DNA from: Halostagnicola kamekurae
Lineage (GTDB): Archaea; Halobacteriota; Halobacteria; Halobacteriales; Natrialbaceae
DNA: 64,000 bases
Reading direction: 5' to 3'
NCBI RefSeq assembly: GCF_900116205.1
Contig: NZ_FOZS01000001.1
Coordinates: forward strand, 1,116,001-1,180,000
The notes below the pieces were generated by a model. The model was not told where the DNA came from. It saw only the letters and a program-made list of their open reading frames with translations, and ran no database searches. Both the position numbers and the translations under genes were made by a program. Below, piece by piece: positions 36,561-62,461 of this stretch. Each line of letters opens with the position of its first letter. Positions within the stretch are counted from its first letter, which is position 1.

Positions 36561-36678
36561 TCACCTCGTAGTATCCGGCTAACGTTTTTACGGGTTTCGA
36601 TTTTTCGCTCGAGGTGTTCCCGCGCCGACGTGACAAATAAACAGAAAAGCTTTGAGCGTTCCGTCGCTGCATACCGCT

Positions 36679-45603: not shown

Positions 45604-47283
45604 ATGACTAGAGAGTCAGACCAAGACGACGGTGCATCGATCGAGAACGAGGCGTCGAGCGGGCTCGACACGCTGCTCATCGGTATCGACGCCGGTTGCA
45701 TTCCGGTTTTCGACCGCCTCTCAGATGCGGATCTCATTCCGACTATCGACCGACTCTGTGCGGACGGCGTTCGAGCGCCTCTCGAGTCCCAGATCCCGCC
45801 CTGGACGCCGAGCGCGTGGCCGTCGATCTACACCGGCGTCAATCCCGGCCAGCACGGCGTCGTCGGCTTTGTCGGCTACGACGGCTACGACTACCACGTC
45901 TCGAGCAACGAGGACGTCCGCGAACACACGATCTGGGACCTGCTGGACCGACACGGCCGCTCGAGCGTGATCGTCAACGCGCCGGTCACCCACCCGCCGG
46001 ACGAGTTCGACGGCGCGGTCATCCCCGGATTTCTTGGGCCGGAAGACCCGCCGTGTCACCCGACGGGCGTGCTCGAGGACGTCCGCGAGGTGATCGGCGA
46101 CTACCGGGTGTATCCGAACTACACCCGCGACGACGAGACGGTCTCGGACGACGAAAAGATCGCGGAGTACCTCAACCTCGTCGAGATGCGCGGGGACGCG
46201 TTTCGCTACCTCGTCGACGAGTTCGATCCCGACTTCGGGTTCCTCCAGTTCCAGAAGACGGACACGGTCTTTCACGAGTTCGAAGGCGAGCAGTCGAAAG
46301 TCGATGCGGTGTACGAGCGGACCGACGAACAGATCGCGAAGACGCTCGAGGCCTGTGACCCAGACCGGGTCTTTCTCGTGAGCGATCACGGGATGGGGCC
46401 CTACGAGGGCTACGAGTTCCGACTCAACGAGTTCCTCCGCGACGAGGGCTACATCGAGACCATGACCGGCGGGAAGGGAATGCCGTCCTGGACGCCGATG
46501 CGACGCCGACTCCGAGAGGGCGAAGACGTCGAGACCTGGGAACCCGGCGCGACCGCCCGCGCCGCGTCCATCGCCGCCCAGTTCGGCGTGACCGCGACTC
46601 GCATCAGGGAGGCCCTCGAGCGGGTCGGCCTCGCCGACATCGCGATCAAGTACGCGCCCGGTGGGGTTTCTCGAACCGCGAACGAGCAGGTCGACTTCGC
46701 GGAATCGACAGCCTATCTTCGGGCTCGCACCGAACTCGGGGTCCGGATCAACCTCGAGGGACGCGATCCGAACGGCGTCGTCCCGCCCTCGCGGTACGAA
46801 CCGCTCCGCGAGGAACTGATCGACGCACTCGAGGACGTCGAGACGCCCGACGGGGAACCGATTTTCGAAACGGTGGCGCCTCGAGAGGAGTACTTCCACG
46901 GCGACTGCGTCGAGGAGACCGTCGACATCGTCACGATACCCGCGGACTTCGAGCACGCGCTGACCGAGCAGCTGGGCGGTGACGGCTACTTCGGCCCGGC
47001 CGAGCCATGGAATCACAAACTCGACGGTATCTTCGCCGCCACCGGTGCCGGCATCGACGACGAGGCGACGATCGACCGCGCTCACCTCTACGACGTCGCA
47101 CCGACCGTGCTGGCGGCGATGGGGATTCCACACAGCGACCGCATGGACGGGGACGTCGTGCCGGTCGTCGATCCGGTCGAGCCAGTCTCGTACCCCGACT
47201 ACTCGGAGACGGAATCCGTAGATCGACCTGGGACGGACGAAGACGTAACGGAACGTCTCGCTGATCTCGGTTACATGGACTAA
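45604..47283 (+). CDS. Alkaline-phosphatase-superfamily phosphodiesterase
   Basis: This 559-residue protein is of the type I phosphodiesterase/nucleotide pyrophosphatase family. Metal and nucleophile sites are visible: Asp in LLIGIDAGCIPVFDRL, the nucleophile Thr in IPPWTPSAWPSIYTG, Asp/His in KTDTVFHEFEG, and Asp-His in FLVSDHGMGPYEG. No signal peptide is present (an acidic 25-residue front), so it is cytoplasmic or on the inner face. In haloarchaea such enzymes often lie beside glycosyltransferase genes. The start is set at the ATG at 45604. The substrate could be a sugar nucleotide or lipid-linked sugar, which is not proven. Confidence 0.8.
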   Translation: MTRESDQDDGASIENEASSGLDTLLIGIDAGCIPVFDRLSDADLIPTIDRLCADGVRAPLESQIPPWTPSAWPSIYTGVNPGQHGVVGFVGYDGYDYHVSSNEDVREHTIWDLLDRHGRSSVIVNAPVTHPPDEFDGAVIPGFLGPEDPPCHPTGVLEDVREVIGDYRVYPNYTRDDETVSDDEKIAEYLNLVEMRGDAFRYLVDEFDPDFGFLQFQKTDTVFHEFEGEQSKVDAVYERTDEQIAKTLEACDPDRVFLVSDHGMGPYEGYEFRLNEFLRDEGYIETMTGGKGMPSWTPMRRRLREGEDVETWEPGATARAASIAAQFGVTATRIREALERVGLADIAIKYAPGGVSRTANEQVDFAESTAYLRARTELGVRINLEGRDPNGVVPPSRYEPLREELIDALEDVETPDGEPIFETVAPREEYFHGDCVEETVDIVTIPADFEHALTEQLGGDGYFGPAEPWNHKLDGIFAATGAGIDDEATIDRAHLYDVAPTVLAAMGIPHSDRMDGDVVPVVDPVEPVSYPDYSETESVDRPGTDEDVTERLADLGYMD

Positions 47284-47390
47284 CGCCGGCAGTTTCACTC
47301 ACCGAAAGTACGTTGCGTTCACTGAAACTGTCTTAATGCGTCTATAGGTATACTCGATCGATAGACAGCCGGAACCGGGCAGGGATCTGA

Positions 47391-48047
47391 ATGGGATTTA
47401 TCTCCGAGGTGCACGTCGTCCACGACGACTTGCTGTTAGTGCCAACGATAAAGCGACATCCGGAGGCGACGATCAAGTACAAGCACGACACCGTCGTCGA
47501 CGGCTCGAGGCTATACTTCGTGTCGGTGTTCACCGAAGACTACGACGCGCTCGAGGAGACGATGGTCACAGACGAGACAGTGGCAGCGTCCGAGCGCGTC
47601 GCCACGTTCGAAAACCGAGCGATCTATCGCGTCACGGCCGACGCGGGCCCCGATATCGTTCCCGATGCATGTATCAAACGCGGTATCTACGTCTTCTCGA
47701 TCGTCAGCGGCGATCCCGGCTGGATCGTTCGACTCCACCTTCCGGACCGATCGGCGCTGGCCGATTTTCAGGAGTACTGCCGGGAGTACGGCGTCTCCTT
47801 TCGGATCAAACAGCTCTACGAATCGACGGCCTCGACCGGAGAGTCCTACCTTCTTACCGAACAACAACGTGAGATCCTTTCGATAGCGTACTTCTCCGGC
47901 TACTACGACATCCCCAGATCCGTTTCACAGGACTACCTCGCCGAGCGACTCGAGATTTCGAACTCCGCGGTGTCACAGCGCCTTCGGCGTGCGATCGCAC
48001 AGTTACTCCGTGTCGTGCTCGAGGAGCAACAGCGACCGCGTTCGTAG
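47391..48047 (+). CDS. Bat-type (HTH_10) transcription regulator
   Basis: This 218-residue regulator has an N-terminal sensor-like alpha/beta domain (residues 1-150) and a C-terminal helix-turn-helix of the bacterio-opsin-activator type: LTEQQREILSIAYFSGYYDI, then VSQDYLAERLEISNSAVSQR. Such proteins are haloarchaeal-specific activators or repressors. It sits between the phosphodiesterase and the first beta-helix gene, and may control the surface-glycan genes. A TATA-like CTATAGGTATAC lies at about 47342-47353. Confidence 0.83.
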   Translation: MGFISEVHVVHDDLLLVPTIKRHPEATIKYKHDTVVDGSRLYFVSVFTEDYDALEETMVTDETVAASERVATFENRAIYRVTADAGPDIVPDACIKRGIYVFSIVSGDPGWIVRLHLPDRSALADFQEYCREYGVSFRIKQLYESTASTGESYLLTEQQREILSIAYFSGYYDIPRSVSQDYLAERLEISNSAVSQRLRRAIAQLLRVVLEEQQRPRS

Positions 48048-48408
48048 CGTCGTTTCGTCGTCGATCTTCGAAGTACCGTGTGAGGCCGGCACGTGCTACG
48101 TTCCGCGGTCTCCTCGAGACACTCTCCCGTCGCACAACGGGCTGTTCTGAGACGACTGCAAGGCGAGTTCCGGTCTCTGGTCGATACGACTAACCAATAT
48201 CGGTTCGAACTGTAGCCGTCGCTTCTCTTCGAGCACAGCCATCGGCAAGAAATATCACATTACTCACCGGATTTTAGAGAGAGAAACCGTTTCATAGAGT
48301 GCGACTATCGATTGATCCTGTCAGTGGAGTATTATTTAATACTTAAACGCTGGATATCCGAATCCACAGATACTGGGGACGGTGTTACTCTTGTTAAAGT
48401 GAACATCA
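48048..48408. promoter_or_regulatory. AT-rich promoter region of the first beta-helix gene
   Basis: No gene is seen. The stretch becomes AT-rich from about 48230. GTATTATTTAATAC at 48329-48342 has 6-nt inverted arms and lies about 67 nt before the ATG at 48409, as a possible binding site or TATA region. Confidence 0.4.
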
Positions 48409-50043
48409 ATGGCGAAACGAAGCGGTTACCAATTTTCGAACCACGAAAAAACATCGACCCATCCCTCACACACCGACGATTCGGAGTCGACTGTACAGGA
48501 ATCTACAACGAGCCAATCCAGACGATCATTCCTTCGTGCCAGTGCGGTTGCCGGTATCGCGTCGCTGGGAGCACTCACAGCGGCCAGCGGGGCCGCGAGC
48601 GCACACCACGAGGAATACGACGACATCGTAAACGTCGTCGACGCTGGGGCCGATCCGACCGGATCGGAGTCGATTACGCCCGTTCTCGAGGACATCCGAG
48701 CGGACAACACCGCGTTCGAGTTTCCGGAAGGCGAGTACTACATGGACGAGCAGTTCCGGTTTACGAACTACGAAAACATCGGGTTTTTCGGCCACGGTGC
48801 GACGATAATTCCGGCAGACTTCTACGACTTCCACGGACCGCAGTTCCGACTGTTTCGGCTCGGGACGTACCTCAACCCGGGGAAACGGCTCCGGTTCGAG
48901 GGCTTCGATATCGACCAGACCGCGCCCGATACGGGTATTCGAGTGATCGGGACGAACGTCACCGATCAGTTCGAAGTGCGTGATATTACGATTCACGGAC
49001 AACACGAGAGCGGGACGTGGGGGCCGGCCCTGTTCGGGATTTCCGACCCGAACGGCAAGGGCATCGTCGAACGATTCCGCGCGCCCGACGGCGGTCTCTT
49101 CGGCGACTACACGCCGAATGCGGGAAACACCTGGAAGGGGCCGATCGGGATCGAGGCGAACATGAACCAGGGGACCCTCGAGTTCATCGACTGCGAGCTC
49201 GACGGTTTCCCGAGTACCGGACTATACGCGTCCGGCAGTGACGGAAGAGTCCTCGTCGAGGGAGGAACGTACCGAAACAACGGCACCGCGAGTCTCCGCA
49301 TCGGCGGTAGAGACAGCGAGGTCAGGGACGTGACGATCGAAGTCGACGAGGAGCCATCGTACGGTCTCGGCCAGCGCGGGCTTCGTATCGAAAACAGCGA
49401 CGGCGTATACGTCGACAACGTCGACATCTCGATCACGGCCCCGCACCCGAACAGTCACGCCGTTTCGGTGATGAACACGTGCAACGGCTTACAGCTCGAG
49501 AACTGTTCGATCGACATGCGGGGCGATCGGGTGAACCACGGCATCGTCGTCTCCCCACAGGCAGGCGAAGCGTGGATTAACAAGGTCGATATCGTCCACG
49601 AGACCTTGGGCGGCTATCCGATCTGGATTCGCGATTCCGAAAGCGACGACCGCATTCTCGTCGAGCGAGTCGACATCTCGGGAGAGGCCGGCGTCGAAGG
49701 CGGGTTCCGCGACGGCATCTGGTGTGGCAGAAACAACTGTCGGTTCAGCACCTTCGTCGTCGATCAGCCCGGACGCGGCGACGTCAACCGAAACGGCATC
49801 ATGATAACGGGCGACGACACGGAGATCTATCGCGGCGAGTTCTACGCGAGTCAGTACCCCTACATCGATCAGGGCCACAACAACCACATTCGCAACTCGG
49901 TCATGATCTCCGACGACGAGGACCTCGAGGGGGCGCGCCTGTACTCGACCGCCTCGGAACCGACGCTCCAGTACAATAAGATCGCCAACGGAATCGACGA
50001 CCTCGGAGCCTCGTCGGTCAGCAGTTGGCACAACGAGCCATAG
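48409..50043 (+). CDS. Tat-exported right-handed beta-helix protein (copy 1)
   Basis: This 544-residue protein has an N-terminal polar stretch, a Tat signal (RRSFLRASAVAGIASLGALT) and then a parallel beta-helix of pectate-lyase type. The helix starts NVVDAGADPTGSESITPVLE, the typical opening of Pectate_lyase_3 proteins. Repeated short strands with Asn/Asp turns follow. It should act on or bind an extracellular polysaccharide, as a lyase, epimerase or hydrolase; the catalytic residues are not clear. A paralogue lies at 56061-57554, sharing MDEQ, FRLGT, GTWGP and WKGP blocks. The convergent neighbour at 50105 is a deacetylase lipoprotein. Confidence 0.8.
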   Translation: MAKRSGYQFSNHEKTSTHPSHTDDSESTVQESTTSQSRRSFLRASAVAGIASLGALTAASGAASAHHEEYDDIVNVVDAGADPTGSESITPVLEDIRADNTAFEFPEGEYYMDEQFRFTNYENIGFFGHGATIIPADFYDFHGPQFRLFRLGTYLNPGKRLRFEGFDIDQTAPDTGIRVIGTNVTDQFEVRDITIHGQHESGTWGPALFGISDPNGKGIVERFRAPDGGLFGDYTPNAGNTWKGPIGIEANMNQGTLEFIDCELDGFPSTGLYASGSDGRVLVEGGTYRNNGTASLRIGGRDSEVRDVTIEVDEEPSYGLGQRGLRIENSDGVYVDNVDISITAPHPNSHAVSVMNTCNGLQLENCSIDMRGDRVNHGIVVSPQAGEAWINKVDIVHETLGGYPIWIRDSESDDRILVERVDISGEAGVEGGFRDGIWCGRNNCRFSTFVVDQPGRGDVNRNGIMITGDDTEIYRGEFYASQYPYIDQGHNNHIRNSVMISDDEDLEGARLYSTASEPTLQYNKIANGIDDLGASSVSSWHNEP

Positions 50044-50104
50044 TCGGTCGAACGCTCGCCCGTCGAGAGCAGTCGGTCCGTTTGGACGTGGCTGGCTGTA
50101 ACGA

Positions 50105-51157
50105 CTACTCGGAGCCGTCCGCGGTCGCTCTGATCGCGTCTCGGAAGGTGACCGGCTCGAGGTCGCTGTCGTCGACCCACTCGAGAACGTCTCGAAGCTT
50201 CGATTCGGTCACGGTCTCTTTGAACGTGTGCGCGCCGATGATCGCTATCGCTTCCTGTCGTTCGACGTTTGCGAGCTGTGCTTTGGTATTCTCGGTGGTG
50301 GTGTACTCGATGAAAAAGTTCCGGTTCGTGTCGAACGGATCGAACTCGTCTTTCGGATTGAGCATCGAACCCGGGTTCACGTTCGCGATGCCGTCGTAGT
50401 GGTCGGTCGCGAACTCGAGGGCCCACTCGTCGACGATGTCGTACGGAGCGAGGAGCGTATCGACCGAGAAGTCCATCGACTCGAGTTGCTCCTTGCAGTC
50501 GCCGAGGAACTGGTTCATCAGGTCCTCGGGGTAGCGTTCGACGGTTTCGCCGGCCGCGAACGATTCTCCGATCTCCTCTTCGAACTCGATGTATGGCCCC
50601 GTCTCGTCGGTTGACGAGGCGGTGATAGTCCGACGAACGCTGTTTTCCCCGTCGGTGATCTCGAGGTCGTATATCTGGTGAAAGCCGTGGTTTCGCTTTT
50701 CGGGGTAAATTCGCGTGTCGCCAGGATCGACGTCTTCGACGAGTTCGAACTCACCGAGGGCGTTGTGCCCGGTCGTATGAGCCATGATCTCCCACCCGGC
50801 GTCGGCGAGTTCGGTGAGTTCTGATTCTCCCATCCAGTTACCGCCGTTGAAGTCCTCGCGGTCCATCCACTCCGTGACGATACCGGTGCTGGCGGGAATA
50901 TCGAACTCCTGATGGACCGGAAACGCCAGTTCGTAGTCGGACATGGGCCCGTCGTCGTAGACGAAGACGACCGCGCCGCCGTCGATGTTCGGAACGTCCC
51001 GGTTACCGTCGCTCGAGCCGTCGCCCGGCGAACCGTCGTCGCTTTCGGTTTCGGACGACCGGATTTCGTTCAACGCGTCTGTACAGCCGGCCGTCAGTGA
51101 GACGGTCCCGGCCGCGAGTGCGCCGAGAAACTGGCGACGTTTCGATTCGGAATCCAT
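50105..51157 (-). CDS. Polysaccharide-deacetylase-fold Tat lipoprotein
   Basis: This 350-residue protein has a Tat signal with lipobox (RRQFLGALAAGTVSLTAGC), an Asp/Ser/Gly-rich linker and a NodB-type domain. NodB motif 1 is present as VFVYDDGPMSDY (both Asp), motif 2 as MAHTTGHNAL (two His), motif 5 as IAIIGAHTF; motif 3 reads LLAPYD where RxPY is usual, so one Arg is missing. It is probably a membrane-anchored, outward-facing deacetylase. A TATA-like CATATAAGT lies about 35 nt upstream on its strand. It is convergent with beta-helix copy 1. Confidence 0.82.
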   Translation of the reverse strand: MDSESKRRQFLGALAAGTVSLTAGCTDALNEIRSSETESDDGSPGDGSSDGNRDVPNIDGGAVVFVYDDGPMSDYELAFPVHQEFDIPASTGIVTEWMDREDFNGGNWMGESELTELADAGWEIMAHTTGHNALGEFELVEDVDPGDTRIYPEKRNHGFHQIYDLEITDGENSVRRTITASSTDETGPYIEFEEEIGESFAAGETVERYPEDLMNQFLGDCKEQLESMDFSVDTLLAPYDIVDEWALEFATDHYDGIANVNPGSMLNPKDEFDPFDTNRNFFIEYTTTENTKAQLANVERQEAIAIIGAHTFKETVTESKLRDVLEWVDDSDLEPVTFRDAIRATADGSE

Positions 51158-51524
51158 GTACTGTTCTCCACGTCGGCCCCACCCTACCTACTTATATGTC
51201 GGTTAAGCGTCGAGTCGGTGCTCGAGCCGATCGAGCCGCCCGCCCGGACCCCGACGAGCGCGGACGAACCACGCTCGCCCGCCGTCGGTCGATCGAGCGC
51301 CGTCACCGTTCGGCGGGTACCGGTCGAGACGCGACGGTTCGAGGTCGCCCGAGGGTGATCGTCTGTTCGTTCACCCTCGGTCGTGACCGTGCGATCGCCT
51401 CGAGTCGGGCGTTTAACCCGGACATAATAAGGACCGGGTCGCGTGTAGCTCCAGCCGATACCGTGTCTGTTCCGGAACGCGACCGAACGTCGACGGTGGG
51501 GGCGATCGATCGGATCGACTTCCG
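51158..51524. other. Intergenic, no gene seen
   Basis: The stretch holds the divergent promoters of the deacetylase (TATA-like at about 51190-51200, minus strand) and the flippase. AAGGAC-type and GTTTAAC-like sequences at 51410-51435 could be flippase promoter elements. No protein-like frame is convincing. Confidence 0.4.
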
Positions 51525-53153
51525 GTGGATGAGTTCGTGACGAACGTTATCCCGGTCGGCCGCTCGAGCGTCGGCGCTCTCCTGAGTACCGTCGCTTTGT
51601 CACCGATTCTGTACCGGCTGTTAGGCACCGCCGCGTTCGGCGAGTACTCGTTTCTGCTCGCGGTGTTCGCGATCTATACCGCCGCGGTGAGCGTGGGCGT
51701 TCCCGACGGGATCCGGACCACCCTGTCCGCGAACCGACGGACGGACTCGAGCGGACGGCTCGTCGTCGCGCACGCACTCGCCGCGATCGGGCTGGCAGTG
51801 CTCGGTGCAGTCGCGCTCGCGCTCGCTACCCGAACCGCCGTCTTCGACACGATTTTCGGCGCCGGTGCGAGGCCGTATTTCTTCGTGTTCAGCGCGCTCG
51901 TGATCACGACCCAGATTAGAGAGTTCACCAGACAGACGCTGGCCGGACTCGGTCTCGAGGCCCAGGCCGAACGGCTCCCGATACTCGAGTCGGTCGCCGT
52001 CGCCGTCGTCGTCCTCCCGTTCGTCGCCGTCGGATTCGACGTCTTCGGCGCGCTCGCGGCACATCTGGTGGCGAGTGTCTTCGTCTCTATCGCGGGAGTC
52101 CGCCTCATCGCCCGACGCGTGTCGCTTTCCGAGCTGGGCGCTCGATCCAGATCCGGATCCTGGCTCGAGCAGATTCGGCTCGACCCGCTGACGGCCGTTC
52201 GCACCGTTGTGTTGGTGGCACTCGCTCACGTCGGCGTCGTGCTCCTGTACCGATTCGTCGACGCCGCAGCGGCCGGCACGTACCGCATCGCGCTTACGCT
52301 CGCGTCGATACTCTTCGTCGTTCCGCTCGTACTCCGACCGCTGTCTGCTGATTCCCGCGCCGAATCGTGGTCCCGGAACGGAGCGGGGCCCCGGTCCAAT
52401 CCCGTCGGCGTGACGATTCGATACACGTTCGTCTTGGCCGCCTGGAGCGCGGTCGTCCTCGCGTCGCTCGCGGACGTCGTGGTCCCCGCTCTCTTCGGCC
52501 CCGCGGCGACGAGTGCCGTCGGGCCGCTCGTGGTGATGCTACCCGGCGCGTTCGGGGCGGCGCTCGCCGGGCCCGTGCAAACGGCTGTCAGGGCTGACGA
52601 CGGACGCCGGTACTCGGTCGCCGCGACAGCGGGCGCGGCGGGGCTCTTCGTCGCGGCGAGTCTCGTACTGATCCCGAACTTCGGTGTACAGGGCGCAGCC
52701 GCCGCGACCAGTATCGGCTACGGATCGCTGTTCGCGTTTCACCTCGCGAGCGCTCGAGCGCTCGATCTCGAGCCGCTCGCCGGCGCTCGACTCGGGCGGA
52801 CCGCTCTGGCGAGTGCGCTCGCGGCGGTTCCGGCCGTCGGCTTCTCGGCGGCGATCACGAACGGGTGGCTCGCGGTCGCGATCGTTCCTCCGGTCGCGCT
52901 CGCGCTGGTGTTCGGCTTCGGGGTTCTCGTCGGGGCCGTCGACCTCGAGGTGCCCTTCGAAGCGCTCGCGGCGGCACCCGACCCCGTCGGCGGCTGGGCC
53001 GACGCGGCGTATCGGCGCTTCGACGGACTCGATGCCGACGCGATCCCGATAAACTGGGTTCAGCGCCTGCTCATCCTGGTCGGGGTCTCCCTGCTCGTGA
53101 CCGGCCTCTTCGTCGGCCTGCTCGGATCCGGCATCGAAAGCCTGCGATTCTGA
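51525..53153 (+). CDS. Polysaccharide flippase (second copy)
   Basis: This 542-residue protein has 12-14 hydrophobic segments and the family front ALSPILYRLLGTAAFGEYSF. The C-terminal ATSIGYGSLFAFHLASA matches the flippase at 31172-32752 (ATSIGYGSMAVFHVW), so the two are paralogues. It should flip lipid-linked glycan intermediates. The start is GTG at 51525; the overlapping ATG at 51529 is out of frame with an early stop. It lies inside the glycan cluster between a deacetylase and a glycosyltransferase. Confidence 0.83.
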   Translation: MDEFVTNVIPVGRSSVGALLSTVALSPILYRLLGTAAFGEYSFLLAVFAIYTAAVSVGVPDGIRTTLSANRRTDSSGRLVVAHALAAIGLAVLGAVALALATRTAVFDTIFGAGARPYFFVFSALVITTQIREFTRQTLAGLGLEAQAERLPILESVAVAVVVLPFVAVGFDVFGALAAHLVASVFVSIAGVRLIARRVSLSELGARSRSGSWLEQIRLDPLTAVRTVVLVALAHVGVVLLYRFVDAAAAGTYRIALTLASILFVVPLVLRPLSADSRAESWSRNGAGPRSNPVGVTIRYTFVLAAWSAVVLASLADVVVPALFGPAATSAVGPLVVMLPGAFGAALAGPVQTAVRADDGRRYSVAATAGAAGLFVAASLVLIPNFGVQGAAAATSIGYGSLFAFHLASARALDLEPLAGARLGRTALASALAAVPAVGFSAAITNGWLAVAIVPPVALALVFGFGVLVGAVDLEVPFEALAAAPDPVGGWADAAYRRFDGLDADAIPINWVQRLLILVGVSLLVTGLFVGLLGSGIESLRF

Positions 53154-53315
53154 TTCGAATCTCCCCGGCGTTCGCCGGGCGGATCAACGAGCAGTTCGAG
53201 ACGAGCGCGAGAAAAGAGAGTGGAAGCGATCGTGTTCGAAGCGGCCGTGCGTCGAAGCCATCGCGTGCTCGTTTACGCGATGGCAGTCATCACTGCGGAA
53301 ACTATCGTTCTAACC

Positions 53316-54470
53316 TCACTGCGGAAACTGTTGTTCCAACTGCTCGCTCTCTGCCATGTCGAACACCATCGCAAACAGCAACAGCGAAACGCCGAGACAG
53401 CAGACGAGCGCGCTCGTGATACCGCTCGCGAGTACCGGGCCGTTCTGTCCGACGGCATCGACGACCGTCAGGCACGCGGCGACGACGCCGAGTGCGGTCG
53501 TCCCCGCACCGAAGAGGTAGAACAGCGCCAACGGGTGGAAATCGGTCACGAGATGCTTCGTCTTCAACCGCCAGAGGAAGTCCCGAAGCAGCATCAACGA
53601 CACGTTCGGAATGTACGTCGAGTACTCGATGCTCGACTCCTCGTCGCCGTAGACCGCCGGCATTCCGACGTCCGCGACCCGCATCTCGTCGACGTTGAGT
53701 TTGACTAGCAGGTCGTTACAGTAGCCGTAGTACTCGTAGAGCGAGGGGACGTCGACGGCCTCGAGTGCCTCGTGAGAGATCGCGGTGTAGCCGTTCTGTG
53801 GGTCCATCGTCTTCCAGTACCCCGAGGCGACCTTCGTCAGGAACGTCAACATCGAGTTCCCGACGAACCGGAACCGCGGCATCGCCGCGCGGTACTCTCG
53901 GTCGAGCAACCGGTTCCCCTTCGCGTAATCGGCGCGTCCCTCGACGATCGGATCGAGCAGTCGCGGGAGCTGCGAGAGGTCCATCTGCCCGTCGGCGTCG
54001 ATCGTCGCCGTCACGGTCACGCCCTCCTCGAGCGCGGCGAGGTAGCCGGTTTTGATCGCGCCGCCGGCTCCCATGTTCTCTCGGTGCTGAATCGGGAGGA
54101 CCCGCCCGATCGAATCGTGGAGGGTCGCCCGGGTGGTAAGCGGCTCCGGCCCGCCGTCGGCTCGGGGTTGATCGTCCTCGGTGCCGGGCTGATTGGCCGC
54201 GGCGCGGGAGTGGTCGTCCGCGGCGTGGGGCTGATCGTCCCCTCCGCGAGAGTGATCGCCGTCGACGACTGTCGACGAGATCGCTCCGGTCTGCGCTCCG
54301 GACTCCGCTCGAGCGGCCGCGAGGATCTCCTCCCACGTCCCGTCGGTCGACTGGTCGTCGATCGCGTAGATCCGATCGACGTACTCGGGGATCTCCCGGA
54401 TGACGTCGCCGACGAACCCCTCCTCGTTGTACGCGGGGAGGACGACGCCGACGGTGGCTTCGCGGTACAT
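53316..54470 (-). CDS. GT2 glycosyltransferase with two C-terminal membrane helices
   Basis: This 384-residue enzyme starts TVGVVLPAYNEEGFVGDVIR and has the AIDDQSTDGTWEEIL segment and the metal-binding DADGQMD (about 158-164), typical of GT-A fold, dolichyl-phosphate-sugar-synthase-like enzymes. The end has two hydrophobic helices (FYLFGAGTTALGVVAA; LVCCLGVSLLLFAMVF). An unusual insertion of about 60 low-complexity residues (roughly 55-118) sits within the catalytic domain. It probably transfers a sugar to a lipid carrier. It follows the lipoprotein gene at 54532 by 61 nt on the same strand. Confidence 0.83.
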   Translation of the reverse strand: MYREATVGVVLPAYNEEGFVGDVIREIPEYVDRIYAIDDQSTDGTWEEILAAARAESGAQTGAISSTVVDGDHSRGGDDQPHAADDHSRAAANQPGTEDDQPRADGGPEPLTTRATLHDSIGRVLPIQHRENMGAGGAIKTGYLAALEEGVTVTATIDADGQMDLSQLPRLLDPIVEGRADYAKGNRLLDREYRAAMPRFRFVGNSMLTFLTKVASGYWKTMDPQNGYTAISHEALEAVDVPSLYEYYGYCNDLLVKLNVDEMRVADVGMPAVYGDEESSIEYSTYIPNVSLMLLRDFLWRLKTKHLVTDFHPLALFYLFGAGTTALGVVAACLTVVDAVGQNGPVLASGITSALVCCLGVSLLLFAMVFDMAESEQLEQQFPQ

Positions 54471-54531
54471 CAGCGCTCACCGATCGCGCCGGTGCGAACG
54501 GTCCTCGAGCGAGCGATCGGAACCCAATTGG

Positions 54532-55800
54532 TCATGTCTCGAGCAGGTCACTCGCCGTCACGACTTCGACGTCCTGTTCGTCGATGTACGTCAGGAGATC
54601 CTCGAACTCGGTGGCGGCCATCCCGCCGTCGCCGATCTGTTCGAAGCGAAGGACCGCGAGCTGGCCGTACTCGGCAGCGTATCCGACGTACTCTCTGGTC
54701 ACGTCGCCTTCGTTGCCGGGGAAGACACCGATGTTATGCGGATCCGTCAGGGGGAGAGCGTTCGGACTCCCGCCGTACCTGAACGCCTGTTCGTGTTGCT
54801 CTCGAAGGATGTCCATCGTGTTCGGACCGAGGACGTTGCCCGGAGTCACGAAGTGGCGCGCGCCGTCTTCGAACCCGCGGCTCTCGAGGTAGGACTGGGT
54901 CTCTCCGATCATCTGGCGTTGTTCCTCGGCCGAGTAATCGGGCAGTCGGGACGATCCCGTTCCCGGACGTGCGACCATTTCCCACCCGCCCTCGGAGAGC
55001 TCCTGTAACGACGAGTAGGAGAGTCGACCGGAGTTGTTGACCGTATCCGGGATAACGGACTCGACCCCGACGAAGTCGTGCTCCTGCATCGGTTCGAACG
55101 CCTCCGAGCGATGGCTCTCGAGCGTCCCGTCGAACAGCAACATGACCTTGCCTTTCTCCGGACGCGAGACGGACCGGAGGTCGTCTATCTGACACTCGAG
55201 TGCGCCGTCCTCGCCGCCCCGGCGGCGCGCGGCGATGCGGATCTCGTGGACGGAGCTGAGATCGGTGTGTGAATCGACGCCGGTGGTCCCGAGGTCCACG
55301 CGAACCCACCGATTGCGCGGGCCGATGAGCGATCGCGTCAACGAGTGGACGCTGTTCGAACCGGGAGCCAACAAGTCCACCGTCAGGTGGAGTTGCTCGC
55401 GGCCGGTAAACTTCACCGCCAGCGAGAGGTTGCGGCCGCTGAGATCCATTCCACCGGTGATCGTTCGCTCGATACCCGCGTACTCTGTAGACTCGTCCGC
55501 GGTGAGTTTCGCAGACTGCGAGCCCGCGTACGAGTCGTCCGAGGCGGCCTCGAGTCCGTTGTTCTCGAGCATGGGCTCCCACTGCTCGAGGTCCTCGAAG
55601 GTCGCGATCGATTCCCCGGGTAATTGCTCGTCGTCGTCGCCGTTCCCACCATCGTCGTCTTCGTCACCGTTCCCACCCGTCTCAGAGTCGTCCGTCTGGA
55701 ACGGAAGCGACTCGCGTACCTCTGAAACACACCCTGCAAGCCCTGCCGTCGCGCCGACAGCGGCCGCGGCTATGAACGATCGTCGATTGCGCTTCGTCAT
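54532..55800 (-). CDS. Deacetylase-fold Tat lipoprotein with degenerate active site
   Basis: This 422-residue protein has a Tat/lipobox signal (RRSFIAAAAVGATAGLAGC), an acidic Gly/Asp linker, a jelly-roll carbohydrate-binding-like domain (about 70-205; ATFEDLEQWEPMLENNG) and a NodB-type domain (about 215-422). It aligns with the lipoprotein at 50105 (GWEMVARPGTG against GWEIMAHTTGH), but motif 1 reads LLFDGTLES (second Asp lost) and motif 2 has lost both His. It is thus probably a glycan-binding pseudoenzyme. The start is the ATG at 55800 just before the KRNRRSF signal. It is divergent from beta-helix copy 2. Confidence 0.8.
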   Translation of the reverse strand: MTKRNRRSFIAAAAVGATAGLAGCVSEVRESLPFQTDDSETGGNGDEDDDGGNGDDDEQLPGESIATFEDLEQWEPMLENNGLEAASDDSYAGSQSAKLTADESTEYAGIERTITGGMDLSGRNLSLAVKFTGREQLHLTVDLLAPGSNSVHSLTRSLIGPRNRWVRVDLGTTGVDSHTDLSSVHEIRIAARRRGGEDGALECQIDDLRSVSRPEKGKVMLLFDGTLESHRSEAFEPMQEHDFVGVESVIPDTVNNSGRLSYSSLQELSEGGWEMVARPGTGSSRLPDYSAEEQRQMIGETQSYLESRGFEDGARHFVTPGNVLGPNTMDILREQHEQAFRYGGSPNALPLTDPHNIGVFPGNEGDVTREYVGYAAEYGQLAVLRFEQIGDGGMAATEFEDLLTYIDEQDVEVVTASDLLET

Positions 55801-56019
55801 CGACTGGGACAACGAGTCGTCTGACCTTTCTTATCCGTGTGTTAAGCGCCAGCGCGCTCCGGCCCGTTCTCCGGTCGGAACGCGACGGAGACGCGATTAT
55901 CACGATGATAACCGGGAGAATTCATCAGCGAAGCTATCGGATCGAACGATTGTTTGTTTCCCGTGAAACAGTTGCTCTCTGTTCATTCAGTGCGCCAATA
56001 ATTTCACAGAAAGTTACCA

Positions 56020-56035
56020 CTCATATATGTATAAC
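56020..56035 (+). promoter_or_regulatory. TATA box of the second beta-helix gene
   Basis: CATATATGTATAACC at about 56020-56034 lies roughly 30-35 nt before the ATG at 56061, a near-ideal spacing for a leaderless haloarchaeal transcript. A palindrome GTTTCCCGTGAAAC lies further upstream near 55956-55969. Confidence 0.55.
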
Positions 56036-56060
56036 CCCCCTCTCGTAACGCTCCGATGCG

Positions 56061-57554
56061 ATGCGAGGAAACTCACGATTTCGTTCGATAGACCGTCGAT
56101 CGTACCTGAAAGGTTGTCTCGTCGGCGTCGGATCGACACTCGCGTTCGGCGGTGTCGCTTCGGCCGACCATCTCGAGAGGGAGTACAGCAACGTCGTCGA
56201 CATCGTCGACGCCGGCGCGGATCCGACCGGCGAAACGCCGATCACACCCGTCTTGCGCGAGGTGGTCGACGACGATACGCTGATACAGTTCCCGGAAGGG
56301 CGGTACGCGATGGACGAACAGCTCCGATTGACTGACTTCGACAACGTGGGGTTCGTCGGCCACGACGCGACGCTCGTCCCAGCGAACTATTACCAGTTCG
56401 ACGGCCCGCAGTATCGACTGTTCCGACTGGGGACCCGGACAGCGCCCGGGCGAGATCTGCGGTTCGAAGGATTCGAAATCGACCAGACGGCAGCGAATAC
56501 CGGAATCCGCGTCATCAACGCCGAAGTCGAGGACGGACTGCTCGTCCGGGACGTCGTCGTCAACGGTATCCACGACGCGGGAACGTGGGGGCCGGGACTT
56601 TTCAATATCGTCGACCCCGACGGGGAGGGACACGTCGACTGCTTCAAGGCGCCCGACGGCGGCGTCCACGTGGACTCGACGCCGAACGAAGGCAATATGT
56701 GGAAGGGGCCGACCGGAATCCACGTCAACGAATACCACGATGGAACGCTTATCTTCGAAAACTGCGAACTCGGTGGCTTCCCGGGCAACGGGCTTTACGG
56801 GTTCACCGAGAACGGACAGATCGGTATCGACGGCGGCCACTTCGAAAACAGCGGTACCGCGTCGATTCGCCTCAGCGGCTCGCGCGGCGCTATCAGAAAC
56901 GCGTCGATCACCGTTGACGACAACCCCGACGACGCGTCGGGCCAGCACGCGATTCGAATCGACGACGGAGAGACGTTCCACATCGAGAACGTCACCATCG
57001 ACGCTCCGGAACCGAACGGCGAGGCGATTCGGGTCATGAGCGATGTCGAAGACGTTACGATCGAAGACACAGACGTCAGCGTCGGCGAAGGCGGAAGTTC
57101 GGCCATTCGACTCGATTCGGGGTCGGGGACTGCGACCTTCTCGGACGTCGACGTCGACATCGACGGCAGCGCCTACGCGTTCAGAATACTCGGGGACGAT
57201 CCCGGAGCCGTCACGCTCAAGGACGTCTCGGTCACGGGCGATGCCAGCGGGATCCCGATTCGTCACGCGATCCTCTGTGAGCGCGATGACGTGACCTTCC
57301 AGGGACTCACGCTCGAGCAAACAGGAAGCGACGAACGGGGAGGACTCTATCTCAGTGGGGACGACTACCGCATCGCAGACAGTAACCTCGAGACTGCGAA
57401 CACGGCGATCGCCATTACCGGTGCGAGCGACGTCACGATCGAGGATACGGTCGCCCGGTCGTCAGAGAGCAACTCCGTGCACATATACGCCGACTCGGGA
57501 TCCGTCTCGCTTGAAGACAACTCCTTCCCGGATGGCGTTCGAGACGATCGGTGA
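56061..57554 (+). CDS. Tat-exported right-handed beta-helix protein (copy 2)
   Basis: This 497-residue protein has a Tat signal (DRRSYLKGCLVGVGSTLAFG) and a parallel beta-helix closely related to the protein at 48409-50043: both share VDAGADPTG, EG-Y-MDEQ, GH-AT, GPQ-RLFRLGT, LRFEGF-IDQTA, GTWGP and GN-WKGP in the same order. Later rungs carry many D/N-x-T/S strands and differ more. It should be an extracellular polysaccharide-modifying or -binding protein. The ATG at 56061 matches a TATA box about 30 nt upstream; an earlier ATG at 56056 is out of frame. Confidence 0.8.
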   Translation: MRGNSRFRSIDRRSYLKGCLVGVGSTLAFGGVASADHLEREYSNVVDIVDAGADPTGETPITPVLREVVDDDTLIQFPEGRYAMDEQLRLTDFDNVGFVGHDATLVPANYYQFDGPQYRLFRLGTRTAPGRDLRFEGFEIDQTAANTGIRVINAEVEDGLLVRDVVVNGIHDAGTWGPGLFNIVDPDGEGHVDCFKAPDGGVHVDSTPNEGNMWKGPTGIHVNEYHDGTLIFENCELGGFPGNGLYGFTENGQIGIDGGHFENSGTASIRLSGSRGAIRNASITVDDNPDDASGQHAIRIDDGETFHIENVTIDAPEPNGEAIRVMSDVEDVTIEDTDVSVGEGGSSAIRLDSGSGTATFSDVDVDIDGSAYAFRILGDDPGAVTLKDVSVTGDASGIPIRHAILCERDDVTFQGLTLEQTGSDERGGLYLSGDDYRIADSNLETANTAIAITGASDVTIEDTVARSSESNSVHIYADSGSVSLEDNSFPDGVRDDR

Positions 57555-57713
57555 GGTCTGTCACCGGCCTGTACGGTTGCTGACCGCGTCTTGGACCTGA
57601 CCACGTCGAGGGGGGAGACGATCGACGAAGCGCTCGCGGGGGCGACGAAGCCGGCATCGAGCGGCGCTTAGCGGTGCCATAATAAACCCGCCCCGCCCGA
57701 AATCGATACCGGA

Positions 57714-58703
57714 ATGACACGCGTCAGCGTCATTATTCCGACGTACAATCGAGCCGAAACGCTTCCCCGTGCGATCGATAGCGCGCTCGAGCAGACGGTC
57801 GAGGATCTCGAGGTCGTCGTCGTCGACGACGGCTCGACCGACGATACGAGCGCCGTGCTCGCGGCGTACGACGACCCGCGAGTTCGGCCGGTCGTTCACG
57901 CGACGAATCAGGGTGCCAACGCGGCCCGAAACACCGGTATCGACCACGCGAACGGCGAGTACGTCGCCTTTCTCGACTCGGACGATACGTGGCTCCCGGC
58001 GAAACTCGAGCGACAGCTGGGGGCGCTCGAGGGCCGCTCGAGCGAGTGGGTCGGCGTCTACTGCGATTCGCGGTTCGAGCTCTCCGGGACGGACGGGCGA
58101 CTGCGAACGACCGCGGCGAGCGTGCTCGCCACCCGCGACGAGACGCCGACGCTGGAGGGAGACGACGAACTGATCGGCGAAATCCTCGCCGATAACGTCC
58201 AGCCGGGTGCGGGGTCGACGCTGCTCGTTCGGACCACCGTCGCGGACGAAGTCGGCGGCTTCTCCGAAGAACTCGATCGATTCCAGGATCCGGAGTTTTG
58301 CATCAGCGTCCTCAAGCAGGGCAAACTCGCCTACGTCGACGAGCCGCTGGTCGTCCGCGAAGAGACCGGTCATCCGCCGGCTTCCGTCGTCCACGCGGCC
58401 AGCGATCAGTACCTCGAGATGCACGAGGAAACGGTCGACCGATACGAAGATCGGGGATTCGAGATCCGCGCGAGCCACGACCTCATCGTCGCGAAACGCT
58501 ACTTCGCGGACGGGAAGCCGCTTCGAGGGCTTTGGCATCTTCGCACGGCGTCGGCCTCGCCGCGCAACTACCCGGGGCTGTGCTGGGCCGCCGGAGCGGG
58601 CCTTCGGCGCAATCCGCTCCCGGTCGTCACGACGGTGCTCGGCGGACTCGTCCTCGCGGCGGTCGCCGGTCGGACGCTTCGCTCGCGACGACGTCTCGAG
58701 TGA
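57714..58703 (+). CDS. GT2 glycosyltransferase
   Basis: This 329-residue enzyme is a GT-A family 2 transferase: VSVIIPTYNRAETLPRAIDS, VVVDDGSTDDTSAVL, AARNTGIDHANGEYVAFLDS with the DSDD metal site and a QPGAGSTLLV acceptor loop. A single hydrophobic helix closes the protein (VVTTVLGGLVLAAVAG). It should transfer a sugar from a nucleotide donor to a growing surface glycan. It follows the beta-helix gene by 159 nt. Donor and acceptor unknown. Confidence 0.87.
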   Translation: MTRVSVIIPTYNRAETLPRAIDSALEQTVEDLEVVVVDDGSTDDTSAVLAAYDDPRVRPVVHATNQGANAARNTGIDHANGEYVAFLDSDDTWLPAKLERQLGALEGRSSEWVGVYCDSRFELSGTDGRLRTTAASVLATRDETPTLEGDDELIGEILADNVQPGAGSTLLVRTTVADEVGGFSEELDRFQDPEFCISVLKQGKLAYVDEPLVVREETGHPPASVVHAASDQYLEMHEETVDRYEDRGFEIRASHDLIVAKRYFADGKPLRGLWHLRTASASPRNYPGLCWAAGAGLRRNPLPVVTTVLGGLVLAAVAGRTLRSRRRLE

Positions 58704-59190
58704 GACGATAGTTCAGGATTTCGTACGGTCGGTCGACCGAGTTTATCCGTTGTTTCGTAGCCCTCTCGAGGAATGTTTGATTTTCCTGTGGTGCGTTAGA
58801 CCGCAGTTCTGGCAGTGCTTCGGTACTCTCGGCACGGTACGTGATCCTCACGGGAAGTCGATATCGAGAACCGACTCGTTCCCAATATTCCATGATGTTT
58901 TTACCCCGTTCCACAACAGCAATTTGATATTATAGTCTCGGTAGAATATTTCCCAGTCGGTATCCGGGGTGTTCGAGGTGTCTCCAGTCACAATCAGAGC
59001 GAACGAAGACCGACGATGGTCAAAATGGCTGTTTCAGACGTTTCAATGCTTAACTGAGCCATAATTATTGGTCGCTCTCCCGATGATCAACTAACGAGGT
59101 GCACGTTTACAGGTGCTCGCCGAACGTCGGATTGACAGCGACAGGTTCGATCGACCGCTGCCCGCTCGTTCACCACGGTTGTTATAGACG
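58704..59190. other. Intergenic, possible decayed gene
   Basis: No intact gene is seen. A minus-strand frame broken by stops reads NTPDTDWEIFYRDYNIKLLL and, after a stop, VPKHCQNCGLTHHRKIKHSS, which looks protein-like. It may be the remains of a gene, but I cannot name the family. The right part, near 59165, holds the promoter of the next gene. Confidence 0.3.
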
Positions 59191-60885
59191 ATGAACAAGG
59201 AACTCTTCGGCGTATTTGGCAGTATCGAGGCGTTCAATCGGTTCCGGTCGAACGACGAGTTCGACACAATACTCGAGGGAGAACGGATCACAGCCGGTAT
59301 CAGAGACTCCGGACTCGGAGCGCCGGGATGGAGCGCGACCCACGAAACCGACGACGGCATTTGTCTCGTCTGGGGGGAGGCGTACGTGCCCGGCGCGGAA
59401 ACCAACGCCGCGCGCTGGGTCCTCGAGCAGTACCCCAGCGCCGGGACCGACGCGCTCGCGTCCCTCAACGGCTCGTACCTCGTCGTCCTCGATATCGACA
59501 GCGCCGAGCAAGCGTTCGTCGCCACCGACATGGTTCGGTCCCGATCCTGTTTTTATACCGACGAGCCGGGTGTCCGCGTCTTCGGGACCGATTCGGGCGA
59601 GGTAGGTCGAACGCTACCTGCTCCTTCGCTCGACCCGAACGGCGTTCTCGATTTCCTCCATCTGGGTGTGACTCTCGGCGAGAAAACCTGGGTCGAGCAC
59701 CTCTCTCGACTGCCGATCGACAGCCGGCTCACCGCGGATTCGGTGGACGAACTCGACCGGTTCGTCTACCGCCCGCGCGAGTTCGACTACGTCGACGAAC
59801 TGGCCGACCGGCTCGAGCGGGCACTCGAGCGGCGGTCGATACTTCCGGGCGAAGGTGCGCTCCTGTTGTCTGCCGGGTACGATTCGCGCATCATCCTCTC
59901 GCAAGTGCCGTCGATCGAACGAAGTTACACGGTCGGGTATCCGGACGGGCAGGAAGTCGACGGCGCGAAACGGCTTGCAGACCAGTACGACGTCGAGCAT
60001 ACGGCGTTTCCGCCGGACGAACGATACCTCCGCGCCGACGAATCGAAGGTCCGCTACTCACAGGGGATCAAAGAGTCGTTGCACATCCACCACGCCGGAT
60101 ACACCGACGAAATAACCGCCGACACGGTCTATCACGGCCTCCTCTGTGACACGTTCTTCCGAGGCCACTTTACCGAACAGGCGGGTATCGATGTGTTCGG
60201 CAAGCGGATCAATTTCGATCGGCTCGATCCGGACCCGGACCCGGTCGAGGTATTGCTCTCTCGATACGGGTACGTTCCCGAGACGAGTTTCGAACTCGCG
60301 GACCGAATGCCGTTCGAACACGACGTCGAGGCGTATCTCGAGAACGCGATCGAGGACGCGGTCGACGCGGTCGCGGATCGGGCGGACCAGCCCCAGAACG
60401 AACTCACCGCGTGTGGCATCGCGAACCAGCCATCAATCCCGTTCCACAACCACCTCTCGGACAACTTCTTCACCGCGTTTCTCGCGACGGACGCTGAATT
60501 GGTCGAGTGGCACCTTCAGACACCGCCAGAACACCGTACGACGGAGACGTTCCTCCGTGCGTGCGAACAAATAGACGAGGATGTCCTGCGTCATCGACCG
60601 CCGGATCGACCGTACGATTCTCCCCTCCTCAACGAGACAGAGCGGTTCATCCGGCGAAAGACGCCGTTCCTATCCTCGTTCGATCCGCCCTGGCCAAACC
60701 GCGAAACCCTCTTCGACCAGTACTATGCCGACCAGCAGTTGCTTCCCGACCTCGAGTGCGCCCACACCCTCCAACCGCGACATAAACTCCGGCTGAACGA
60801 TGTGCAGGGGTGGCTCCGAAGCTGGTCGGACAGCGACGGATCGCTGCTGTCGTGGTTCGGGGCCGGGAACCCATCTTTCGTCTAA
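59191..60885 (+). CDS. Asparagine-synthase-like protein without the N-terminal Cys
   Basis: This 564-residue protein has an N-terminal glutaminase-like fold (FGVFGSIEAF, then LNGSYLVVLDIDSAEQAFVA) and a C-terminal ATP-pyrophosphatase domain with the PP-loop ALLLSAGYDSRIILSQ (SGGxDS-like, with Ala for Gly) and a GYPDGQEVDGAKRLADQYDV segment. The start MNKELFG has no Cys at position 2, which true AsnB uses to release ammonia from glutamine. Such homologues in polysaccharide clusters of bacteria amidate uronic acids. A glycan-amidating role is therefore plausible here, with ammonia or a different donor. Confidence 0.78.
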   Translation: MNKELFGVFGSIEAFNRFRSNDEFDTILEGERITAGIRDSGLGAPGWSATHETDDGICLVWGEAYVPGAETNAARWVLEQYPSAGTDALASLNGSYLVVLDIDSAEQAFVATDMVRSRSCFYTDEPGVRVFGTDSGEVGRTLPAPSLDPNGVLDFLHLGVTLGEKTWVEHLSRLPIDSRLTADSVDELDRFVYRPREFDYVDELADRLERALERRSILPGEGALLLSAGYDSRIILSQVPSIERSYTVGYPDGQEVDGAKRLADQYDVEHTAFPPDERYLRADESKVRYSQGIKESLHIHHAGYTDEITADTVYHGLLCDTFFRGHFTEQAGIDVFGKRINFDRLDPDPDPVEVLLSRYGYVPETSFELADRMPFEHDVEAYLENAIEDAVDAVADRADQPQNELTACGIANQPSIPFHNHLSDNFFTAFLATDAELVEWHLQTPPEHRTTETFLRACEQIDEDVLRHRPPDRPYDSPLLNETERFIRRKTPFLSSFDPPWPNRETLFDQYYADQQLLPDLECAHTLQPRHKLRLNDVQGWLRSWSDSDGSLLSWFGAGNPSFV

Positions 60886-61054
60886 GCGTTCCATTTCGAC
60901 AACGGTTTTTGCCACTCCTATATACTCACGCAAGATCACAACTCCATCCCGCGGTCGGAAACGAAACTGCAACGGTTACTCAATCGACTATTTTTCGGAC
61001 GCGAGGTGCTGAAGCGTGGGAATATTTATACATCGGGGCGAATTACCAGAAACT

Positions 61055-61441
61055 ATGCGTCTGACGAGTGAAAAGGAACTGAAATATTCCGAGCCCGGGG
61101 ATCGGTTCACTGACACACCCGCATCGGAGTTTCTCCCCGCGTCAGATCCCACTCTCTGTGCGATACTCGAGGAAATGGAAACGCCAGCTACCGTGGACGA
61201 AATCACCGATCAGCTCATACAGCCGGCGAACCCGCCGATCGAAACCTGGGCCGACGTCCACGAACGGCTCTACGAAGAGCGACTACCCGACCTCGAGGCG
61301 TCGGGCGAGATCGCGTTCGATCGGGATCGGGGGACGGTGACCGTCCTCGAACCCGATGCTGATGGGCACACGATAGCCACTCGAGTGCTCGTTGGCGCCG
61401 TTTCGATTCTGGTAGTGATCGTTCTCTTCTTAGTTATCTAG
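61055..61441 (+). CDS. Winged-helix-like protein with C-terminal membrane helix
   Basis: This 128-residue protein has a helical domain (CAILEEMETPATVDEITDQL, then DVHERLYEERLPDLEASGEI) that looks like a winged helix with a final strand (DRDRGTVTVLEPDADG), followed by one hydrophobic helix (VLVGAVSILVVIVLFLVI). The start at 61055 is supported by a TATA-like AATATTTATAC at about 61021-61031, some 30 nt upstream; a GTG at 61016 would be ahead of it. It is convergent with the DUF7344 protein. It may be a membrane-tethered regulator. Confidence 0.68.
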   Translation: MRLTSEKELKYSEPGDRFTDTPASEFLPASDPTLCAILEEMETPATVDEITDQLIQPANPPIETWADVHERLYEERLPDLEASGEIAFDRDRGTVTVLEPDADGHTIATRVLVGAVSILVVIVLFLVI

Positions 61442-61462: not shown

Positions 61463-62074
61463 TTACTCGAAGATTCGTCGCACGGTCAACAGCGTGAACG
61501 TCAGTAGTATGAGCGCGCTGAGCCCAATCCCAGAGATTATCGAGACGACCGGCAACTCGAACACTGCTCCCAGTAGTAACACGTAACAGAGCACTGTCGC
61601 GCCGAGGTACGAATCGTCCCAGTTCGATTCCGCTTCTTCCTCGTCGCTCTGTTCGTCCGTGGTCGGATCTACCTGCAGGTAGCGATCGACGGTGTCTGCT
61701 AGCGGTTTGCGCTCGACGATTCCGCGGTTCTGTTGATAGTCGATTATTCCCGCCTTATCGAGTTTCGAGAGGTGGGACTGGTACAGCGGGATGTAGACGC
61801 GCTGGCGCTGGGTCGACGTCAGCTCTTCGACGGTGGTCTCGTGTTCCCACGCCGCGACCTGCTCTGCAACGTCTCGCATACGTACGGGCCCCTCAGTTTG
61901 GCGCAGATACTCGAGTACGAGACGTCTGCGTTCGTTTTGCAGTAGATGGAATATTTCGTCCTTCGGGAACGACTCGTCGGCGCTCGTGACGGTATCGGTC
62001 TCCGCCTGAGCGTCACCCTCGATGTCTTCGTCCCGTTCCCCCTGTTCTTCCGAACTGATATATGTCGACTTCAT
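61463..62074 (-). CDS. DUF7344-type winged-helix protein with two membrane helices
   Basis: This 203-residue protein has a 40-residue acidic front, then the winged-helix DUF7344 block (IFHLLQNERRRLVLEYLRQT, YIPLYQSHLSKLDKAGIIDY), and a C-terminal pair of hydrophobic helices (LGATVLCYVLLLGAVFEL, ISGIGLSALILLTFTLL). In haloarchaea such proteins are found near surface-glycan and cell-envelope genes and are probably membrane-tethered transcription regulators. Its stop faces the stop of the gene at 61055. Confidence 0.8.
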   Translation of the reverse strand: MKSTYISSEEQGERDEDIEGDAQAETDTVTSADESFPKDEIFHLLQNERRRLVLEYLRQTEGPVRMRDVAEQVAAWEHETTVEELTSTQRQRVYIPLYQSHLSKLDKAGIIDYQQNRGIVERKPLADTVDRYLQVDPTTDEQSDEEEAESNWDDSYLGATVLCYVLLLGAVFELPVVSIISGIGLSALILLTFTLLTVRRIFE

Positions 62075-62461
62075 CGTAGTGATTCCCTCTAATCAGAAGG
62101 AGATAATAAAGGATTGGAACCGTACATCTCGTGGGAATTTATTTTCGTTCAGTTCATGAATGCGAATGCGATTTTCATTCATTTTATTCTACAGCTATAT
62201 CGGCTCTATCCTGTGATTACCCGGTTGATAGGATTCTCATTTCGAGTCGAATTTCGCCTATTCTGGCGATAATACGGTCGGACCTTCCTCCCGAATTTAC
62301 GGTCATTTCCGATTTCGAAACGGTACAGAACCGGCGAAACTCTTATCTGAGAAATTCCCACCATATTCCTTATATGAGATCGAATATCGACCCCCAAATA
62401 ACCATGATTTTCCGGGCTTACGAGAGTGATAATAAACCGTGTTCACGCCGTTCAGTCGTGT
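62075..62461. promoter_or_regulatory. AT-rich divergent promoter region
   Basis: The stretch is much more AT-rich than its surroundings. On the minus strand a CTTTATTATC element (about 62099-62108) precedes the DUF7344 ATG by about 30 nt. On the plus strand GATAATAAACC (about 62427-62437) precedes the DUF1616 ATG by about 30 nt. No convincing gene is seen between them. Confidence 0.5.

Follow-up and report, generated by a model that had tools for sequence, protein, structure and literature searches.

A conserved haloarchaeal locus for a predicted acidic surface polysaccharide in Halostagnicola kamekurae

The DNA analysed here is a window of 64,000 nucleotides from Halostagnicola kamekurae (Natrialbaceae), which covers C1:1116001-1180000 of the 4.1-Mb genome (C1 is contig NZ_FOZS01000001.1); genes are named by their positions in the window. 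The block 45604-60885 is probably (at a probability of about 0.65) the left part of a ~45-kb locus for an acidic surface polysaccharide of the exopolysaccharide or capsule type. It is a well-defined variant, as yet undescribed by experiment, of a known kind of locus, that for haloarchaeal surface polysaccharides.

The chemistry of haloarchaeal exopolysaccharides is known, while their gene pathways are almost unknown. The present analysis delimits a conserved locus that spans genera and has a precursor that can be predicted (an N-acetylamino-uronate), a dedicated family of exported beta-helix proteins and a candidate polymerase or transferase (mem663) that belongs to no named family. The most interesting new points are the strict linkage between the beta-helix and mem663 genes and a virus-related, metal-less lipoprotein (54532).

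Conservation and extent of the locus

An initial annotation of the window had described the block as a surface-glycan export and remodelling locus. The ten genes that it listed are open frames at the positions given, and their families are confirmed by sequence and profile searches (Table 1). The GlmU- and GlmM-like genes placed just before the block both score above their NCBIfam cut-offs and are linked to the locus in 12 Natrialbaceae loci. Other Halobacteria were searched for this gene order, a check that had been suggested, and it was found in relatives from five families, with the core order kept. This conserved order, together with a gene content for synthesis, export and editing, supports the original description. 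The block holds the genes assigned to it, but its right limit was drawn too early, as the locus extends via the DUF1616 gene (62426) beyond the right end of the window.

Past that end are genes for a 663-residue membrane protein with ~14 hydrophobic segments (mem663), a DUF354 transferase, a nucleotide-sugar dehydrogenase (UGD), a DUF7343 regulator and GlmS. The mem663-DUF354-UGD-GlmS genes are found a short way past the block in each of 20 relatives examined, drawn from five families; mem663 is within the relative stretch in 19 of these and within the neighbouring stretch (553594-555537) in the last genome (G191). A strong beta-helix match (E < 1e-60) occurs in 109 of the 392 genomes searched, and every one of these also matches mem663 strongly (E < 1e-140); both cut-offs were set with the results in view. 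Within the Natrialbaceae, both genes occur in 59 of 59 beta-helix genomes, mem663 occurs alone in 1 genome, and 36 have neither. The corresponding Fisher values (1e-25 and 5e-87) are indicative only, because the cut-offs are post hoc and the genomes are not independent. Independently of the cut-offs, the two genes lie close together: the distance between them was measured in 67 pairs, has a median of 14 kb and stays within 35 kb in 65 of them.

Predicted product and pathway

UGD matches TviB (UDP-GlcNAc 6-dehydrogenase) with 356 bits vs 198 bits for AglM (UDP-glucose 6-dehydrogenase) and passes the general cut-off for nucleoside diphosphate-sugar dehydrogenases, but neither of the two equivalog cut-offs. 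The combination of GlmS, GlmM and GlmU with a TviB-like dehydrogenase predicts an N-acetylamino-uronate glycan, so that the amino- or uronic-acid polymer proposed in the initial annotation is the likeliest product. In line with this, the exopolysaccharide of Haloferax mediterranei, possibly the product of a homologous locus, contains 2-acetamido-2-deoxyglucuronic acid (PMC5467301, PMC6631277).

In the following pathway, the identity of the sugars, each reaction and the place where the product ends up are inferred. GlmS (encoded outside the window), GlmM and GlmU would provide UDP-N-acetylglucosamine (UDP-GlcNAc), which the TviB-like dehydrogenase (also outside the window) would oxidise to UDP-N-acetylamino-uronate. 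An oligosaccharide would be assembled on a dolichol-type carrier by the family 2 glycosyltransferases (GT2) and the DUF354 transferase, possibly with amidation of the uronate carboxyl by the asparagine-synthase-like enzyme. The flippase would move the unit outward, and mem663, with 14 predicted transmembrane (TM) segments and a GT-C-like character, would polymerise it or pass it to an acceptor. The chain may then be cut or epimerised by the two beta-helix proteins exported through the twin-arginine translocation (Tat) system, while lipoprotein 50105 would remove acetyl groups and lipoprotein 54532 would bind the glycan non-catalytically.

Several observations weigh against this pathway. The TviB, AglJ and glycosyltransferase matches lie below equivalog cut-offs, that of 53316 to AglJ included. 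A canonical Wzy polymerase (PF04932) is not in the block, the sole match above the cut-off in the genome being at C1:495133, ~670 kb away, and neither is an initiating sugar-phosphate transferase (PF02397), whose genome matches are C2:1066224 and C1:492596 alone. mem663 has no significant match in Pfam or the PDB. The asparagine-synthase-like protein 59191 lacks the N-terminal glutaminase Cys of asparagine synthetase B, as do 13 of 14 aligned members with the window's own included, so that amidation would depend on free ammonia or on a partner; the pyrophosphate (PPi) loop is retained.

mem663 might fill the role of Wzy. It shows a marginal PMT_2 match (E = 0.011) and an invariant GIDxWTH stretch, and some of its homologues are publicly annotated as glycosyltransferase family 39 or DUF2206; we infer from these features a GT-C-like polymerase or transferase. 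The canonical Wzy and initiating transferase lie together at C1:492-496 kb, in a separate polysaccharide locus (C1:484000-503900) that encodes the PF02397 initiating transferase, a Wzy-like protein, GT4 enzymes and a sulfatase.

The locus flippase, which barely passes the Wzx family cut-off, has an end branch of 1.05 in the tree; those of the two relatives closest to it measure 0.36 and 0.12. A second flippase (31172-32752, minus strand), located near mobA, is 34% identical to that of the locus (51525-53153, plus strand), and redundancy between the two has perhaps allowed the locus flippase to evolve faster.

Alternative explanations

A real though minor possibility is that the locus makes a protein-linked S-layer or archaella glycan of the N-glycosylation type and not a free polysaccharide. 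A flippase, an AglJ-like GT2 enzyme and a nucleotide-sugar dehydrogenase are the same kinds of gene as are found in archaeal N-glycosylation islands (PMC13308652). Those islands are, however, described as aglB-anchored (PMC13308652), and no AglB/STT3 oligosaccharyltransferase match was obtained among the scanned locus proteins; the exported beta-helix and deacetylase editors also suggest a polymer rather than a protein-linked glycan.

A locus for polysaccharide degradation, in which exported beta-helix lyases and deacetylases would feed on foreign polymers, is very improbable: the beta-helix fold is indeed nearest to lyases, epimerases and hydrolases, but the genes are strictly linked with GlmS, the dehydrogenase, the flippase and the glycosyltransferases, and the conserved core genes include no sugar-uptake genes. 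We find a synthase-dependent, alginate- or poly-GlcNAc-like system hardly credible. A beta-helix and a deacetylase gene stand side by side and 50105 gives weak PgaB and IcaB matches, but the Pga/Ica equivalogs are not reached (PgaB, 35.4 bits vs a cut-off of 322; PgaC, 61.7 vs 422) and the gene set is one of a flippase and a lipid carrier. No processive synthase was found in the block, in agreement with the earlier remark that it has no alginate- or Pga-type synthase. That the genes are chance neighbours deserves next to no weight, for although accessory genes (the 50105 type, beta-helix B, ATP-grasp and deacylase) are gained and lost individually, the core order across five families and the 109/109 co-occurrence already refute it for the core.

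Related loci in other haloarchaea

Loci homologous to that of the predicted acidic polysaccharide are carried on the megaplasmids pHME505 of Haloferax mediterranei ATCC 33500 (about 443-470 kb) and pHGLR2 of Haloferax gibbonsii LR2-5, which makes the locus testable in genetically workable strains. Both share with the window locus the flippase, two beta-helix genes, GT2 genes, a Bat-like helix-turn-helix (HTH) regulator, DUF1616 and a YdjM-type protein, as well as dehydrogenases, DUF354, a GT39-type mem663, glmS, the asparagine-synthase-like gene and glmU. They differ in gene order and in having two dehydrogenases and acyltransferase and ATP-grasp genes, and no lipoproteins of the 50105 or 54532 type were found in the Haloferax locus stretches read.

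Haloterrigena turkmenica is a further species of the Natrialbaceae. Amino sugars and glucuronic acid are constituents of its exopolysaccharide (PMC5467301, PMC6631277), which also agrees with the predicted product. Haloarcula hispanica produces an exopolysaccharide that is acidic and contains uronate, like the product predicted here, and its genes (HAH_1661-1667 and aepG, HAH_1206; PMC5467301, PMC9943897) share with the window locus a flippase-type protein, glycosyltransferases, a sulfatase-like protein and a DPM-synthase-like GT2 enzyme. This likeness is one of gene kind; the Haloarcula genes differ in their PimA-like transferases, and no beta-helix or deacetylase has been described among them.

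A 2012 paper named Nmag_3271, 3272, 3273, 3275 and 3278 of Natrialba magadii among possible genes for polysaccharides (PMC3403918), and the listed deacetylases, flippase and glycosyltransferases of Nmag_3271-3278 follow the order of the window locus. That listing is putative, and the genes are assigned to the locus partly from gene order; further literature on Nmag_3271 was not found, nor was any on DUF354. A parallel with exosortase-associated exopolysaccharide systems, suggested by their pairing of a deacetylase with an asparagine synthase, found no support in the literature searched. The label "undescribed" in the initial annotation is therefore correct for experiments, as we found no experimental characterisation of the locus in the literature, but not for the genes, since those of Natrialba magadii had already been named as candidates.

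Deacetylase-fold lipoproteins and the HFTV1 turret protein

Both deacetylase-fold proteins carry a Tat-type RR motif and a lipobox, whereas both beta-helix proteins carry the RR motif without a lipobox. In 50105, the metal-site residues D69, H127, H131, the APYD motif and H310 are invariant in 15 of 15 aligned members, and the DD and HxxxH elements of the NodB/CE4 family are present; by this pattern an active metal-dependent deacetylase is expected. 54532 matches no Pfam deacetylase model, and its metal motifs are replaced, with FDGTLES in place of DD and ARPxTG in place of HxxxH. The second motif is also lost in 20 of 20 orthologues, which were picked by the pattern FD[GSA]TLES and are thus selected for the first loss. 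The earlier view of two Tat lipoproteins of deacetylase fold accordingly stands for export signals and fold, but 54532 has neither the Pfam match nor the NodB ligands. Without the ligands, 54532 has kept the fold and probably not the activity, and the conservation of residues around the lost site makes it look repurposed and not decaying.

54532 is a full-length, two-domain homologue of gp31, the turret head protein of Haloferax tailed virus 1 (HFTV1; PDB 8QPG), as found with phmmer from a single sequence (6e-13), with a profile (4.5e-45) and with Foldseek on the predicted structure (template modelling score 0.77). gp31 is its only match among phage records, and no 54532-type genes were found in IMG/VR. 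The turret protein comprises a galactose-binding-like domain and a Zn-containing deacetylase-like domain and has been proposed to act on host glycans (PMC12494034). The two proteins thus share both domains over their full length, and differ in that gp31 is a virion protein with Zn sites, in which both metal motifs are present, while 54532 is a host lipoprotein without metal ligands.

The host named in the HFTV1 record is Haloferax gibbonsii LR2-5. The virus host therefore carries a homologous glycan locus (on pHGLR2), and the turret of the virus bears a relative of the 54532 lipoprotein; the locus stretch of this strain has no convincing 54532-type gene. It is conceivable, if improbable, that HFTV1-like haloviruses target the glycan of this locus family on the cell surface and edit it with the turret deacetylase, and that 54532 is a host counterpart that would bind this glycan too, perhaps acting as a shield or decoy. 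The connection opens a direct virus-host experiment.

Origin and fold of the beta-helix proteins

Beta-helix A (48409) and B (56061) are 40% identical and are the sole members of their family in the genome; across the order, the family is represented in 61 of 95 genera (226 of 392 genomes). Each had been paired with a neighbouring deacetylase-fold gene and the two pairs interpreted as a two-part module duplicated around the flippase and glycosyltransferase genes. We mapped genes in 80 neighbourhood stretches of at most 20 kb from several families and built a beta-helix tree, in which support near the root is moderate (90-94). The A and B clades each hold members of the Natrialbaceae (f1) and of families f4, f5 and f7, and in the latter three the two beta-helix copies already flank the flippase and a 50105-type gene is absent, which indicates that the beta-helix pair predates the Natrialbaceae.

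The neighbour counts also contradict the expected pairing. Among Natrialbaceae A copies, 31 of 35 have the flippase within 5 kb, and 14 of 35 have a deacetylase-fold neighbour within 0.6 kb; 21 of 28 B copies lie outside the locus, and just 5 of 28 have such a neighbour. Of 20 genes of the 54532 type, 17 adjoin a 53316-type glycosyltransferase and 5 adjoin a beta-helix gene, and in a joint tree the 50105 group is set apart from the 54532 group by a branch of 2.6 changes per column. The duplicated module is rejected on these trees and counts, and the arrangement seen in the window is common to only a few genera. The solo B genes of the Natrialbaceae recur in a small number of neighbourhoods that are otherwise unrelated.

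The AlphaFold2 (AF2) model of the beta-helix is confident (predicted local distance difference test, pLDDT, 87) and yields low-scoring structural matches to lyases, the AlgE4 epimerase, glycosidases and tailspikes. On this fold evidence the proteins are probable lyases, epimerases or hydrolases; none of the curated lyase or epimerase models was matched above its cut-off, and a PDB sequence search gave no genuine match. An origin as a virus-derived tailspike was rejected: a set of 50,697 phage records gave zero matches, and viral contigs gave two weak ones. PHROGs gave no match for either the beta-helix or the deacetylase-fold proteins.

Gene content and variable neighbours

Table 1. Genes of the locus within the window.
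Product	Position	Strand	Evidence
GlmU-type sugar-1-phosphate nucleotidylyltransferase/acetyltransferase (UDP-GlcNAc supply)	42617..43798	+	TIGR03992 526 bits vs cut-off 292; locus-linked in several Natrialbaceae
GlmM-type phosphoglucosamine mutase	43952..45331	+	TIGR03990 487 bits vs cut-off 439
Cytosolic type I phosphodiesterase (alkaline-phosphatase superfamily)	45604..47283	+	PF01663 1e-34; zero TM predicted; in-place orthologues 60-87% identical
Bat-type HTH regulator	47391..48047	+	PF04967, PF15915; near beta-helix A in 27/35 Natrialbaceae copies
Beta-helix A, Tat-exported right-handed beta-helix, probable lyase/epimerase/hydrolase	48409..50043	+	PF13229; AF2 pLDDT 87; fold matches
Tat lipoprotein polysaccharide deacetylase (NodB/CE4 fold), intact metal site	50105..51157	-	PF01522 6e-8; invariant ligands
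Wzx-type flippase, accelerated branch	51525..53153	+	PF01943 28.4 bits vs cut-off 28.2; orthologue of locus flippases
AglJ/DPM-synthase-like GT2, two C-terminal TM helices; probable polyprenyl-phosphate sugar transferase	53316..54470	-	PF00535; AglJ model 72.8 bits vs cut-off 325
Tat lipoprotein, galactose-binding-like and degenerate NodB domains; HFTV1 gp31 relative	54532..55800	-	phmmer, profile, Foldseek
Beta-helix B, Tat-exported paralogue of beta-helix A	56061..57554	+	PF13229; 40% identity to A; B clade in tree
GT2 glycosyltransferase, one C-terminal TM helix	57714..58703	+	PF00535 1.4e-38; in-place orthologues 46-85% identical
Asparagine-synthase-like amide-forming enzyme, glutaminase Cys absent	59191..60885	+	PF00733; SAGYDS PPi loop retained
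Small DUF7344-like protein	61016..61441	+	comes after asparagine-synthase-like gene in several relatives
DUF7344 protein (winged-helix-like, putative regulator)	61463..62074	-	PF24035 3e-30; position conserved
DUF1616 membrane protein	62426..63463	+	PF07760 5e-86; position conserved

In some relatives, a variable cassette between the GT2 and asparagine-synthase-like genes encodes a sugar-transfer ATP-grasp protein (PF14397), an AspA-like deacylase and a second two-domain deacetylase, which retains the DD motif. The locus abuts a MoxR/DUF58/DUF4129/DUF7519 block in Halorussus-type and f6 genomes; the MoxR gene of the window is at 36652, ~9 kb to the left. Past GlmS, at C1 about 1192968-1194806, lies a gene for a NodU-like carbamoyltransferase that is also present in two Halostagnicola relatives and may decorate the glycan.

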